A stretch of 64,000 nt of DNA from Quadrisphaera sp. DSM 44207 (lineage in GTDB: Bacteria > Actinomycetota > Actinomycetes > Actinomycetales > Quadrisphaeraceae), in assembly GCF_900101335.1 (NCBI RefSeq), contig NZ_FNKA01000003.1, forward strand, positions 496,001 through 560,000, read 5' to 3'. The translations under genes were made by a program, and so were the position numbers. This document shows positions 3,069-8,064 of this stretch, piece after piece (within the stretch, counting starts at the first letter, position 1; every line of letters begins with the position of its first letter). The notes under the pieces were generated by a model. That model worked only from the letters and a program-made list of their open reading frames with translations. It searched no databases and was not told the origin of the DNA.

Positions 3069-3435
3069 GGGGGTGCCAGGTCTCGACGTTGCATCGTCGA
3101 ACCAGGGGAAGCGAGTCGAGAACGCAGGGTCATCTCGTACAAAGTTCCTTGCAGACCAATAGCTGCCGATAACACGCGCAGCGACCTCACCCTCGCCGCC
3201 TGAGCGAGGCTTGAGGTCCGTCGGCCCGGGAGTGCTCCCGGCCCGGTCGCCGGCGTCGACTAGGGAGCCACTGCTGTCAGCCCTCGTCATCGGGGTTGGC
3301 GGGACTTCCAGGTGACTGAGCCCGGCAGCGGCGCGCCTGCGCGACCGCTGGGGCTGAGAAATCCCGTAGCAGGCTGCACTCGGAGAAGCCCTGGGGGTAC
3401 GACGACGGACGCGGGTTCGATTCCCGCCACCTCCA
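3069..3435 (+). ncRNA. ssrA: Transfer-messenger RNA (tmRNA)
   Basis: tmRNA rescues stalled ribosomes with SmpB. The 5' end GGGGGTGCCAGGTCTCGAC pairs with the 3' end CACCTCC (3428-3434), giving a 7-bp acceptor stem whose third pair is G-U, the alanyl-tRNA synthetase identity element. A T arm with GGGTTCGATTCCC lies at 3415-3425. The tag reading frame starts at GCC 3165 after CAATAGCT, close to the actinobacterial resume context, and ends with TGA at 3201-3203. The discriminator A is base 3435. The genome then reads CAC, so CCA must be added after transcription. End positions come from the acceptor pairing. Confidence 0.95.
3165..3203 (+). other. tmRNA tag-peptide reading frame
   Basis: Twelve codons encode ADNTRSDLTLAA followed by TGA. 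With the Ala carried by tmRNA, stalled proteins receive A-ADNTRSDLTLAA. The LAA end is the standard degron for ClpXP/ClpAP. The residue before it is Thr where most tags have Ala. Confidence 0.88.
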
Positions 3436-3446
3436 CACCCGCGGTC

Positions 3447-3508
3447 AAGGGCCCCAGCGCGGACGGCGCTGGGGCCCTTCGCCGTCCCGGGGCGCGGACT
3501 CGCGCCCC
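3447..3508 (+). terminator. Two hairpins behind tmRNA, the first a likely terminator
   Basis: AAGGGCCCCAGCGC (3447-3460) pairs perfectly with 3466-3479 over a 5-nt loop, giving a 14-bp stem 11 nt after the tmRNA 3' end. A second 8-bp hairpin, GGGGCGCG/CGCGCCCC, lies at 3489-3508. There is no T run after either. Confidence 0.75.
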
Positions 3509-3591
3509 GCATGCGGCCTGCCGGGCCGGGTCGACCACGAGGACACGCCCGGGCGTTGCGCCGCGCGGGTGATCCGGTGCCGTACTGGGGC

Positions 3592-6456
3592 ATGTCGGAC
3601 ACGATCCGTAGTCAAGCGATCACCAAGGAGAGCATGCTGCGCGGCACCCGCCCGCTGGGGCGGGGCTGTCCTCGAGCCTGGAGGCCCGGGGTGAACGGTG
3701 ACGTGGGTCTGGGCATGGCGTACGACTCCCTCTCGATCGGCACCGGCGCGCCCCAGGACGCCGCCACCAGCGCTGCCGGGTACGGGTGGACCCAGGTGGT
3801 CGGCTGGGGTGTGGCGCTGTTCCCCCAGGCCAGCGGCGCGGTGATCTACCAGGGACCCGGTGGTCTGACCGGTACCTTCACCCCCGTGTCGGGGTCCACG
3901 ACGGCGTTCACCTCCCCCGGAGGCATCAAGGCCGACCTGGTCAAGACCACCTCGGGCTACACCGTGAGCGAGCACGCTTCGAACCAGGTGATGACCTTCA
4001 CCACCGCCGGAGTGCTGTCCAAGATCGCCGACCGCAACGGCAACGCCACCACGGTGGCCACCTCGAACGGGTTGCCGACCTCGATCACGTCCTCGCGGGG
4101 CGCCACGGGTGCGCGCACCGCGACGGTGACCTCCACGGCCGGGCAGATCACCAAGCTCACCCAGACCTCGGGAACCTCCAGCCGGTCGGTGTCGTACGCC
4201 TACACGAGCGGGGACCTGACCTCGGTCATCGACGCGCTGGGTCGAGTGACGACCTTCAGCTACACCAACCACGAGCTGACGGGGATCCTCGCCCCCGGTG
4301 GGGTGGACACGAAGTTCACCTACGACACCAGCCACCGGGTGAGGAGCATCACCCAGGTCAACACCACGGTCGGGTCCTCGGGCAACGCGGTGACGTCGCT
4401 GACGTACAACGCCGACTCCACGCTGGTCCACGAGCCCGACCAGGGCCCCACCGGTGCCGCGGTCACGTACACCCTGACCTCCGACGGCTCCAAGCGGGTC
4501 GCCTCGGTGGTCGACGCGGCCGGGCGCAGCCGGGCGACGACGTACAACGCCAACTTCGACGCCCTGACCTCCGCCCAGGGCACCGGGGCGACCGGGTCGA
4601 CGGTCACCAGCACCTACGGCGCCAACAACGGCGAGTCGCTGACCTCGGTGAAGACCCCCGGTGGAGCCACCAGCAGCTTCGGGTACGCCAACACCGCCGC
4701 GTCGACCAAGTACCTGGCGACCTCGGCCACCGATGACGCGGGCAACCAGTCCCTGTTCACCTACAACGGCGCCGGCAACCAGCTGACCGCCACGGACGCG
4801 ACGGGCGCGCAGGCCTCGCTGACCTACAACACCGACGGCACGGTGGCGACCGCCGCCGCTCCGGGCAACGGCACCAACGTCACCGAGTACACCTACGACG
4901 CCGCCGGTCGCCTCGCCACGCGCACCGACCCCGCGGGCAGCGCCACCTACGGCTACGACCAGATGGGCCGACTGACCTCGGTGGTCAACAGCATCGACGC
5001 GGTCAAGACCAGCTACACCTACGACAAGTCCTCCAACCTGGCCACCTCCGTCGGCGGCGCCGGCACCACCACCTACGGCTACGACGCCGGGAACGCCCTG
5101 ACCTCGATGCTCGGCCAGCGGAAGTTCTACTTCGTCGTCGACGACCAGGGCCGGCGCACCGACACCTACATGGGCGGCAACGGGCCGAGCGCGACGAACT
5201 GGGCGGTGCGCTCTCACACCGACTACGACACCTCCGGGCGCGTCACCCGGGTGACCGCGGACCGCAAGCCCGCCACCACCGATCCTGCTCTGGCGACCCG
5301 GGTCACCGACCTGGCCTACTGCTACGCCGCCGGTTCCACCGCCCCGACCTGCTCGAGCACGACCAGCAGCGACCGGGCGTTCACCCAGTGGATGAAGAAC
5401 AACCTCACCGGCCAGGTCGCCACCTACACCTACGACAAGGCCCGACGCCTGAGCGGCGCGGCGGTCAGCGCCGGCACCGACAGCAGCGGCGCCGGCATCC
5501 CCGCTGTCACGTACGCCTACACCTACGACGCTCGCGGCAACCGCACCAGCGCCAGGACCACCAGCGGCAGCACCACCACCCAGACCCGCACCCACAACCC
5601 CGCCAACCAGGTCACAACCGCCGGTTTCAGCTACGACGCCGCCGGCAACCTCACCGCCGACCCGTCGGTCGGGTCCATGGCGTACAACAGCGCCGGACAG
5701 ATGACCTCCGTGACCACCGGCGGGACCGCCTACGACTACGCCGGCCTGGGCCAGAGCGAGCTGATCCGCCACCAGACCCCCGAGGGGACCTACGGTTACA
5801 GCTACGGACGCACCAACGCCCTGGGGCTGCCGATCATCGAGGCCGCCACCCTCTCCCGGCTCACCAGCTCGGCGTACCTGTACAACGACGAGGACGGCAC
5901 CCCCATCGGGCTCACCACCAGCGCCGGTGGGCAGGCGATGTACGTCTACGACGCCCAAGGCTCTCCCGTCGCCCTCATCGGTGACGGCAACAACACCGCC
6001 TTCACCTACTCCTTCGACCCCTACGGCATGGCCGACAACACCTACACCTCCGGCGGCCAGGCCATCCACCAGAACCCGTTCCTGTTCACCGGCGGACTCC
6101 AGGACCGCACCACCGGCTGGGTCAAGAACGGCGCCCGCTACTACAGCCCGACTGAAGGTCGGTGGACCCAGCACGACACCATCGACGCACCCCTGGACCC
6201 GGCCAACGCCAACCGCTACGCCTACGCCGGTTGCAACCCCGTCAATCTTCTTGATCCCACGGGAAGGTTGAGTCGGAGTTGCGGACTCAGTATCGGTGGT
6301 ACGGCTTTCGCTACGGCTTCCATCGGACTCCTGATCCTGTTTCCACCTGCGGGAGCAGGGGCGATCGCTGCGAGCGCTGCGGTCGCAGAGGGTGGATATG
6401 CGTTCGGGATAGCATCGGTTCATGACTCCTGCCCTGCTCCACGACGACGCCGATAG
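3592..6456 (+). CDS. RHS/YD-repeat protein, N-terminally truncated
   Basis: About 954 aa from ATG 3592; the frame is open from 3511 and the true start is uncertain. More than 20 YD repeats (YTYDAAGRL, YGYDQMGRLTSV, FSYDAAGNLTA and others) form the beta-shell that encapsulates a toxin. The RHS core ends with RYYSPTEGRWTQHDTID and NPVNLLDPTGR. The variable C-terminal tip after it is only about 70 aa, with a Gly/Ala-rich hydrophobic stretch, and resembles no toxin I know. The RHS homology begins inside the N-terminal fold (GDVGLGMAYDSLS). No signal peptide, PAAR or export domain precedes it, so the protein is probably not exported as encoded. It starts about 155 nt behind the tmRNA, a favoured integration site. 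It may be a pseudogene. Confidence 0.8.
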   Translation: MSDTIRSQAITKESMLRGTRPLGRGCPRAWRPGVNGDVGLGMAYDSLSIGTGAPQDAATSAAGYGWTQVVGWGVALFPQASGAVIYQGPGGLTGTFTPVSGSTTAFTSPGGIKADLVKTTSGYTVSEHASNQVMTFTTAGVLSKIADRNGNATTVATSNGLPTSITSSRGATGARTATVTSTAGQITKLTQTSGTSSRSVSYAYTSGDLTSVIDALGRVTTFSYTNHELTGILAPGGVDTKFTYDTSHRVRSITQVNTTVGSSGNAVTSLTYNADSTLVHEPDQGPTGAAVTYTLTSDGSKRVASVVDAAGRSRATTYNANFDALTSAQGTGATGSTVTSTYGANNGESLTSVKTPGGATSSFGYANTAASTKYLATSATDDAGNQSLFTYNGAGNQLTATDATGAQASLTYNTDGTVATAAAPGNGTNVTEYTYDAAGRLATRTDPAGSATYGYDQMGRLTSVVNSIDAVKTSYTYDKSSNLATSVGGAGTTTYGYDAGNALTSMLGQRKFYFVVDDQGRRTDTYMGGNGPSATNWAVRSHTDYDTSGRVTRVTADRKPATTDPALATRVTDLAYCYAAGSTAPTCSSTTSSDRAFTQWMKNNLTGQVATYTYDKARRLSGAAVSAGTDSSGAGIPAVTYAYTYDARGNRTSARTTSGSTTTQTRTHNPANQVTTAGFSYDAAGNLTADPSVGSMAYNSAGQMTSVTTGGTAYDYAGLGQSELIRHQTPEGTYGYSYGRTNALGLPIIEAATLSRLTSSAYLYNDEDGTPIGLTTSAGGQAMYVYDAQGSPVALIGDGNNTAFTYSFDPYGMADNTYTSGGQAIHQNPFLFTGGLQDRTTGWVKNGARYYSPTEGRWTQHDTIDAPLDPANANRYAYAGCNPVNLLDPTGRLSRSCGLSIGGTAFATASIGLLILFPPAGAGAIAASAAVAEGGYAFGIASVHDSCPAPRRRR

Positions 6457-6463
6457 GACAACG

Positions 6464-6643
6464 ATGCGCAATAGCCGGGCACGCAGAGCGCTCACTTCCG
6501 TTGTCCCACTCGGAGGTGCAACATGCTTCGGCCTGTTGAGCATCACTAGCGAACCCCCACTGCGCTGGACAGCGATGAGTGCTGCTCTCTGCCTTCTGGC
6601 ACTGGCTGCGCTCATGTTGCTGCGAAAGAATCAGCGATCATGA
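6464..6643 (+). CDS. Small two-helix membrane protein behind the RHS gene
   Basis: 59 aa from ATG 6464, with AGGA at 6455-6458 as ribosome site; ATG 6422 in the same frame would add 14 residues. A basic N-terminus (MRNSRARRALTSVV) is followed by two hydrophobic segments, about residues 11-25 and 36-52, and a basic end (LLRKNQRS). Not recognised. A small gene directly after an RHS tip is where the cognate immunity gene normally lies, and membrane immunity proteins are known, so that role is possible. Base composition is clearly less GC-rich than the surrounding chromosome. Confidence 0.45.
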   Translation: MRNSRARRALTSVVPLGGATCFGLLSITSEPPLRWTAMSAALCLLALAALMLLRKNQRS

Positions 6644-6823
6644 AGCGTTTCTGACGATCACTGAGAGTCGTAGGTCACTCACCCATGTCCTCGGCGTTCG
6701 ACAACGCCGGCCGCTCCTGGATCGACTGGCGTCTTCACGCGGCTCCCCAGGCACCCTTCCTGGTTGGGCCGACCGAGCGACTCCCCAGAGGATGGACGTG
6801 TCGGCGGTCGTGCTCCAGCGTCC

Positions 6824-7096
6824 ATGACCCTCATCATCAGGTCGCAAGAGGCGACTGACGCTGTGCTGAGAGATGTGATGGACGACGGCAGCACGCAGGC
6901 CCGAGAGCGTCGGCGGATCGGTCTCGTGCTGGTCGTCGTGTGGACAGCGGTCTCCGCTGCAGGGTTCCTCCTCATTGACGAGACGGGACTCTCGTGGGTC
7001 CCGATGGTCCTGGGTGCTGCCCTCCTCCCCGTGTTCGGAAAGCTGGTCCTTCGGCGCAGGGGGCACGTCGTCGGACTGCGCCAGTGGCGGTGGTGA
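6824..7096 (+). CDS. Small two-helix membrane protein, hypothetical
   Basis: 90 aa from ATG 6824, with no clear ribosome site. A soluble N-terminal third (RSQEATDAVLRDVMDD) and a basic patch (ARERRR) are followed by hydrophobic segments IGLVLVVVWTAVSAAGFLL and WVPMVLGAALLPVFG, then a basic tail. Not recognised. An orphan RHS immunity protein is one possibility because RHS debris lies on both sides. Confidence 0.42.
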   Translation: MTLIIRSQEATDAVLRDVMDDGSTQARERRRIGLVLVVVWTAVSAAGFLLIDETGLSWVPMVLGAALLPVFGKLVLRRRGHVVGLRQWRW

Positions 7097-7174
7097 TCGT
7101 CCGCTCGGACGTCGGCCGCTCACTGCAGCGATCGCCATCGCGACCCACTTGGTTGATCGAGGCCCGGAGAGCTG

Positions 7175-7321
7175 GTGGAACTCGCGCTCACCGTCCTGGT
7201 GCTCGTCTTCTTCGCGGTGGCGCTGCACCTGATGAGGAACCGCGAGGAGAACCGAGCAGGCAGGTGGCTGTCCTTCATGGTGGCGGCTGCGATCCTGGCG
7301 GTGCTCGGACTGGCGGTCTAG
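7175..7321 (+). CDS. 48-aa two-helix membrane microprotein
   Basis: Starts at GTG 7175 with GGAGA at 7166-7170 and ends at TAG 7319-7321. It is two hydrophobic helices (ELALTVLVLVFFAVALHLM and LSFMVAAAILAVLGLAV) joined by a charged loop, RNREENRAGRW. Third positions are coding-like and the ribosome site is well placed. Function unknown; it sits in the RHS accessory patch with three similar small genes. Confidence 0.45.
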   Translation: MELALTVLVLVFFAVALHLMRNREENRAGRWLSFMVAAAILAVLGLAV

Positions 7322-7380
7322 GCGGTCCACCGCCCTGTGACACGGCAGCAGACGGAGGGTTCCGTGGTGGACGACGCGCG

Positions 7381-7473
7381 GCCGCCGCCGCTCCGGGCAA
7401 CGGCACCGACGTCACCAAGGACACCCACGACACGACCGAGCAGCTGGCCTCCTCGCGTGCGGAGCTGGCATGA
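7381..7473 (+). pseudogene. Displaced fragment of an RHS repeat gene
   Basis: In the frame ending at TGA 7471 the DNA reads PGNGTDVTKDTHDTTEQLASS, which matches PGNGTNVTEYTYDAAGRLAT of the intact RHS gene (around 4860-4920). Nucleotide identity is obvious over GCCGCTCCGGGCAACGGCAC. The Tyr-Asp repeat residues have changed (YTYD to DTHD), so the copy is decayed. This marks the patch as a site of past RHS recombination. Confidence 0.7.
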
Positions 7474-7679
7474 CGACCCTGGTCCCGTGGACAGCTCTCG
7501 ACGTCGTCGGCGGCCTCCTCGCGGTGTGGGGCTCCATGGTCCTTCGACGGCACCGAAGTGGTCGCCTGCCGAATGACTCCGACGAAGCTCGTCGGCGTGG
7601 ACGCACAGCACTCATCGAGATCGATCTGGGGTTGACGTGCATCGTGGGCGTGGCTCTGCGGGCGGCTGCAGGTGGTTGA
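7470..7679 (+). CDS. Small membrane-associated hypothetical protein
   Basis: 69 aa. ATG 7470 overlaps the TGA that ends the RHS fragment (ATGA), the coupling expected for an immunity gene after a toxin tip. Hydrophobic segment TALDVVGGLLAVWGSMVL, then a polar Arg/Asp-rich stretch and a weaker hydrophobic end (LGLTCIVGVALRAAAGG). Family not recognised. The overlap suggests it once followed a full-length RHS gene. Confidence 0.45.
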   Translation: MTTLVPWTALDVVGGLLAVWGSMVLRRHRSGRLPNDSDEARRRGRTALIEIDLGLTCIVGVALRAAAGG

Positions 7680-7785: not shown

Positions 7786-8064
7786 TCAGTGCTCGCCAGC
7801 CACCTGGTCCGCGCACGGCGCCACCACGTAGATGCTCGGCGGCGCGGCCGCGCTCGGCACGGAGCGCACGGGGCCTGGCCCGAGGCGGGTCCAGCCCTGC
7901 CCGGTCCAGACGTGGGTCGCCTGCGCGAGCCACTCGCCGCAGGAGACCGTCACCCGCTGGTCGGCGGGCACGGTGGGGTCGAGGTAGAGGTCGCCGGGAG
8001 CGCGGTCCGGGCGACGCTGCCCAGGTATCACCCGGCAGACGGTAGGCGCTGCGCCCGCGAGCAC
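7786..8064 (-). CDS. Hypothetical protein with two cysteines
   Basis: About 92 aa from a GTG. The second half reads like a folded secreted-type domain (VTVSCGEWLAQATHVWTG, YVVAPCADQVAGEH) with two Cys that could form a disulfide. No signal peptide is visible in this frame, so the start may be wrong or the gene broken. Not recognised. The rest of 7680-8110 shows no other feature. Confidence 0.35.
   Translation of the reverse strand: MLAGAAPTVCRVIPGQRRPDRAPGDLYLDPTVPADQRVTVSCGEWLAQATHVWTGQGWTRLGPGPVRSVPSAAAPPSIYVVAPCADQVAGEH

Follow-up and report, generated by a model that had tools for sequence, protein, structure and literature searches.

The window, a 64-kb stretch of DNA from a high-GC actinobacterium with a genome of 3.2 Mb, carries a tmRNA gene followed directly by an Rhs gene and by an array of small membrane-protein ORFs, which ends shortly before a Gfo/Idh gene. 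The features of this locus are collected in Table 1.

Table 1. Features between the tmRNA gene and the end of the small-ORF array (positions in the window)
Feature	Position	Strand	Basis and remarks
tmRNA (ssrA), tag ADNTRSDLTLAA	3069..3436	+	ARAGORN; RF00023
GC-rich hairpin, likely ssrA terminator	3447..3479	+	self-inverted match of 91%; alignment with related genome G006 extends to 3491
DNA lacking recognisable homology, open frame continuous with Rhs; conserved Rhs N-terminal module missing	3485..3684	+	N-terminal HMM
Rhs/YD-repeat core ending DPTGR; Asp pair D892/D915	3685..6267	+	PF05593, TIGR03696; 36–51% identity to homologs; AlphaFold2 beta shell
Hydrophobic 62-aa tip rich in Gly/Ala, with stop codon (predicted toxin tip acting on membranes)	6268..6456	+	one TM segment; GC3 0.52; homolog tips of same position and type
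ORF A, 59-aa two-TM protein, candidate cognate immunity	6464..6643	+	also open from ATG 6422; recurs in homologs
ORF B, 90-aa two-TM protein, candidate orphan immunity	6824..7096	+	frame open from 6764
ORF C, 48-aa two-TM protein, candidate orphan immunity	7175..7321	+	GC3 0.90
Scar of internal Rhs core, 54 bp	7378..7431	+	90.7% identical to 4846–4899, E 1e-16, blastn self-comparison
ORF D, 69-aa small membrane protein, candidate orphan immunity (least secure among A–D)	7470..7679	+	one TM segment over threshold

The Rhs gene and its position behind the tmRNA

The Rhs gene lies in a stop-free open frame of 1028 codons, with a first ATG at 3511, another at 3592 and the stop codon at 6454–6456. 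Recognisable Rhs homology begins at 3685, 249 nt past the tmRNA, and continues to the stop codon; the start about 155 nt behind the tmRNA, which had been given in the original prediction, corresponds to the ATG at 3592. From 3685 onward the frame is intact, and its third-position GC (GC3) stays at 0.90–0.98 to the end of the core. The frame contains YD repeats (PF05593, 2.3e-23) and the Rhs-associated core domain (TIGR03696, residues 836–918, 6.6e-19), and no PAAR/VgrG-type T6SS domain was found within it.

An AlphaFold2 model built on 16 sequences shows a beta shell with a pLDDT of 65.7, and the PDB structures closest to it are T6SS Rhs shells, Tse5, teneurins and Tc toxins. Foldseek gave E-values of 5e-35 for Rhs shells and 4e-31 for Tse5, with TM-scores of just 0.2–0.4, kept low by the imperfections of the model. 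Profile searching at the sequence level likewise retrieves Rhs proteins, Tse5 and teneurins, and this gives firmer ground than the TM-scores for predicting an Rhs shell fold. The 23 residues that separate the two aspartates at the end of the core equal the spacing of D1141 and D1164, the catalytic pair of Tse5 (PMC10684867). This spacing is kept in 42 of 51 core ends, and the first Asp motif of the window core is DAPL, not DPXG. We regard the two residues as a predicted C-terminal aspartyl protease pair ahead of the variable tip.

The gene had been described as truncated. The truncation is real and affects the 5′ end only; the C-terminus is a natural one. An HMM made from the first 135 residues of 15 homologs aligned to the window only from HMM position 53 onward, which corresponds to 3685, and the conserved N-terminal module (consensus GxRxxATxLPF...VDVGTGNLxV) was found in none of the six frames. 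A search for the N-terminus in another frame gave no match, and a weak MAFFT alignment of 3485–3684 was unsupported. The missing part would map onto the ssrA hairpin and about 200 bp of DNA with no recognisable homology. In homologs the module is present, and several of them have a signal-peptide-like stretch upstream of it, whereas the window Rhs has neither a signal peptide nor the first ~50 conserved residues. Since the N-terminal secretion or delivery region is absent here and present in homologs, the window copy is a truncated and probably non-functional member of its group.

A truncated Rhs protein might still be made and remain inside the cell, where it would act as a toxin–antitoxin-like module or serve as a silent reservoir of tips. 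The open frame with its two ATGs would allow this, and the available part of one source reports orphan rhs genes of Salmonella as toxin–antitoxin modules (PMC7043789). However, no other Rhs gene that could accept the tip was found in the 3.2-Mb genome, and such a role would leave most of the core without a use; hence we consider an intracellular function unlikely. The same search answers the earlier suggestion to look for a full Rhs gene with the same core elsewhere in the genome: the copy in the window is the sole one found.

It had also been proposed to compare the interval between ssrA and Gfo/Idh across strains. Among 12 related genomes, 11 of the same family and none of the same genus, nothing was shared past the ssrA terminator, and none had Gfo/Idh within 10 kb of ssrA. 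This lack of shared sequence indicates local acquisition of the Rhs locus. Its place directly behind ssrA, together with the lack of a common flank in relatives, would suit an integrative element that inserted at the tmRNA and then decayed, and the original prediction had named tmRNA as the integration site. However, a search of the window for another tmRNA 3′ end (≤3 mismatches) found none, so that a direct repeat is lacking, and the nearest match on the contig to the tyrosine integrase family (PF00589), the only integrase family searched, is ~140 kb away. Moreover, 25 related Rhs loci contained no tmRNA and only four tRNAs, and some homologs are plasmid-borne. Within the scope of these searches the stated absence of an integrase and of a second attachment site holds, neither the attachment repeat nor a nearby integrase of a tmRNA-integrated island was found, and we find integration at the tmRNA quite unlikely. 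The position of the Rhs gene behind it may reflect chance or a convenient insertion point.

The tip and the small membrane-protein ORFs

A GC-rich core with an AT-richer extension is the classic core/extension break of Rhs genes. In the window Rhs, GC3 is 0.94 for the core but 0.52 for the tip. GC3 drops at the same border in all 34 loci measured, where tip and partner ORF lie below the core by a mean of 0.27. The less GC-rich DNA noticed behind the Rhs gene is therefore real and represents the ordinary tip region of such a gene and what follows it. The window tip is hydrophobic and Gly-rich and matches no enzyme family; no similarity to other tips was detected (best shuffle z 3.7), and its structure is uncertain in the AlphaFold model (pLDDT 21–29). 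Tips exceed shuffled sequences in GxxxG content, and some have no TM segment. By analogy with Tse5, the window tip may be a toxin tip of the pore-forming type.

ORF A starts 8 nt past the Rhs stop, and the preceding AGGA overlaps the stop codon TAG; the ORF has no codon-position bias (GC3 0.61). Its position directly downstream and its recurrence in homologs, together with two TM segments by hydropathy, make it a candidate immunity gene. With TM calls made from plain hydropathy, the 64 kb contain four ORFs of 40–130 aa with at least two TM segments on both strands, and three of these (A, B and C) lie at 6422–7321; small two-TM ORFs were absent from all 300 Markov shuffles of the segment. Of four small membrane-protein genes originally counted, the three two-TM ORFs thus exceed chance, whereas the fourth, ORF D, has one TM segment over threshold. 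The second Rhs fragment also proved real yet tiny, namely the 54-bp scar. ORFs A–D resemble other immunity-type proteins weakly, and neither the window ORFs nor the partner ORFs tested in homologs reached the cut-off of any Pfam or NCBIfam family.

Behind the array, 7683–7785 matches C1:856289-856395 of the same genome over 107 bp at 79%, in reverse orientation; the C1 stretch sits in the frame of an apparent AbrB-like multi-TM membrane protein. The window stretch, which separates the array from Gfo/Idh, may be a further gene scar. In addition, a 92-aa frame (GC3 0.90) on the minus strand at 7786–8064, beside Gfo/Idh, was assigned to no family.

The locus had been called debris, and it is quite possible, although we lean slightly against it, that it is a dead remnant in which the 5′ end was lost, toxin and membrane ORFs are unexpressed and the intact frame merely reflects recent truncation. 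The missing N-terminal module and signal peptide, the lack of another Rhs as acceptor in the genome, the core scar and the failure to find a sigma-70-like promoter all agree with this. However, the core frame has no frameshift or internal stop and its GC3 is uniform, three two-TM ORFs are packed in 1.3 kb compared with one across the other ~62 kb, and orphan immunity genes have a use without their own toxin. Thus, the loss of the 5′ end stands, whereas about 925 codons of the frame, the tip and the adjoining immunity-type ORF look intact.

Recurrence of the layout and probable exchange of cassettes

Homologs were taken from plasmids of Curtobacterium, Glaciihabitans, Microbacterium and Frondihabitans and from 59 loci of a contig scan, in which a single-protein query matched nothing and an alignment query gave all 59. 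The layout of a common core with a short tip recurs in Cellulomonas, Curtobacterium, Arthrobacter, Leifsonia and others; phage records held distant Rhs only. The clade set comprises 49 distinct Rhs core ends, among them that of the window, and almost all of their tips measure 53–103 aa. In 44 of these ends the Rhs stop is accompanied by a small ORF with one or more TM segments, and in 34 by one with exactly two, a partner being counted when its start falls −103 to +51 nt from the stop. By comparison, among 331 other long ORFs in the same loci the stop had a small TM ORF in 12 cases and a two-TM ORF in 7. The enrichment of two-TM partners is highly significant (Fisher p 7e-30), with a p value that overstates independence because the loci are related; tips and partner ORFs are nonetheless strongly divergent in sequence.

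A broader survey covered about 400 Actinomycetota genomes searched with TIGR03696, from which 59 core ends were picked from the list and read. A partner ORF followed 3 of 44 closed long tips and 5 of 10 short tips (p 0.003), and hence is tied to short hydrophobic tips and not to Rhs genes generally. Rhs genes of Streptomyces plasmids, with ~30% identity, share the same layout with two-TM ORFs of 59–61 aa, which are mostly missing from the gene table, a table incomplete according to its makers. As a side observation, two-TM ORFs of 59–65 aa right after Rhs are missing from distributed gene tables in four Streptomyces plasmid loci (L154, L156, L157 and L158) and in one of Curtobacterium (L047). 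A clade member from Blastococcus (L121:1541-2398) has a prokaryotic phospholipase A2 tip (PF09056, 1.2e-6, just above the cut-off) followed by a four-TM ORF, which hints again at a membrane target.

These comparisons bear on whether the hydrophobic tail is instead the membrane anchor of a teneurin-like surface adhesin of the Rhs type, next to small ORFs unrelated to it. The shell fold matches teneurins too, and hydrophobic tails would suit an anchor. However, the core is conserved while tails differ among homologs, the composition break is common to the tail and the next ORF, some tips lack a TM segment and one is the phospholipase A2 above. We therefore give little credence to an anchor.

Exchange of tips is suggested by loci in which several partial cores stand in tandem, every one followed by a separate tip and most also by a separate partner ORF; such loci occur in Leifsonia (L118), Frondihabitans (L120), Actinotalea (L124), Cellulomonas (L102) and Kocuria (L100). 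Such tandem cassettes bear out the earlier view that Rhs loci grow through toxin tips and immunity genes. Moreover, an orphan ORF of Leifsonia aquatica (L118) has a nearly identical counterpart behind the Rhs tip of a second Leifsonia (L139), and the Curtobacterium locus L103 contains an orphan that matches the cognate ORF of locus L106. This sharing is the pattern expected of orphan immunity genes, and window ORFs B, C and D with the core scar fit it as candidates. Similarities of tips and of partners covary mainly among a few close pairs (Mantel test); without one near-identical pair, Mantel r is 0.18, which none of 5000 permutations reach, and the Spearman version is not significant.

Proposed mechanism and comparison with known systems

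We consider it rather likely that the locus is a horizontally acquired, 5′-truncated Rhs polymorphic toxin gene with a pore-forming-type tip, accompanied by cognate and orphan immunity genes. The secretion, cleavage, pore formation and immunity that we infer for it would proceed as follows. The intact ancestor would have been exported, as the signal-peptide-like N-termini of relatives suggest, with a YD-repeat shell enclosing its own C-terminus. The core aspartates would cut this C-terminus after DPTGR, and the freed glycine-rich hydrophobic peptide of ~62 residues would enter the cytoplasmic membrane of the target and depolarise it. ORF A would be the cognate two-TM immunity protein, blocking the tip in the producer's own membrane, while earlier tip replacements would have left ORFs B, C and D behind as orphan immunity genes, and the scar before ORF D a trace of the recombination behind such a replacement. 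In this genome the toxin probably can not be exported, and hence the immunity array is the part that may still work.

For Actinobacteria as a whole, we lean slightly towards a wider view. Exported Rhs toxins with glycine-rich membrane-active tips of about 50–105 aa, each with a two-TM immunity protein of ~50–100 aa, may be widespread and largely unannotated; their cassettes would be exchanged and orphans would pile up, and in the present locus the array would have outlived the export end. As short hydrophobic tips have no match among named toxin families, the Rhs genes that carry them are easily mistaken for truncated genes or debris; in several plasmid records that we checked, the adjoining ORF is missing from the gene table. 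A search of the open-access literature found no publication on this short-tip class of actinobacterial Rhs. Should the pairing prove real, it would offer a large number of minimal toxin/immunity pairs for direct tests, point to a membrane target for Gram-positive Rhs and open a route into the orphan immunity of actinobacteria.

Parts of this arrangement are known from other systems. Imm17, Imm-CdiI and the W-TIP toxin (PMC3482391) share the two-TM immunity architecture and the idea of a small hydrophobic two-helix toxin; they differ in being families whose cut-offs our ORFs do not reach. The bacterial teneurin-like protein BiTLP has a YD shell and a hydrophobic C-terminal fragment with a predicted TM region, but is much larger, and the available part of its description mentions no array of small two-TM genes (PMC13018210). 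Glycine-zipper LXG toxins such as EsxX, as far as the available part of the source describes them, have a depolarising glycine-zipper C-terminus neutralised by immunity proteins, but use a T7SS/LXG carrier without an Rhs shell (PMC12744356). CDI ionophore toxins (PMC11630599) resemble the tips in their polymorphic membrane-depolarising C-termini with highly variable cognate immunity proteins, and differ in CdiA delivery, five-helix bundles and a separate entry domain. Tse5/Tsi5 (RhsP1/RhsI1) of Pseudomonas aeruginosa combines an Rhs shell, an Asp pair 23 residues apart, a non-enzymatic membrane-active C-terminus and an immunity protein with two predicted TM segments (PMC9637101, PMC10684867); Tse5-CT forms pores and depolarises membranes, and the two-TM Tsi5 neutralises it (PMC9637101). 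However, Tse5 is delivered by a T6SS and has a PAAR-like N-terminus and a 149-aa toxin, whereas the actinobacterial Rhs proteins are of a signal-peptide type with Gly/Ala tips of 50–105 aa and a partner gene that mostly overlaps or abuts the Rhs gene.
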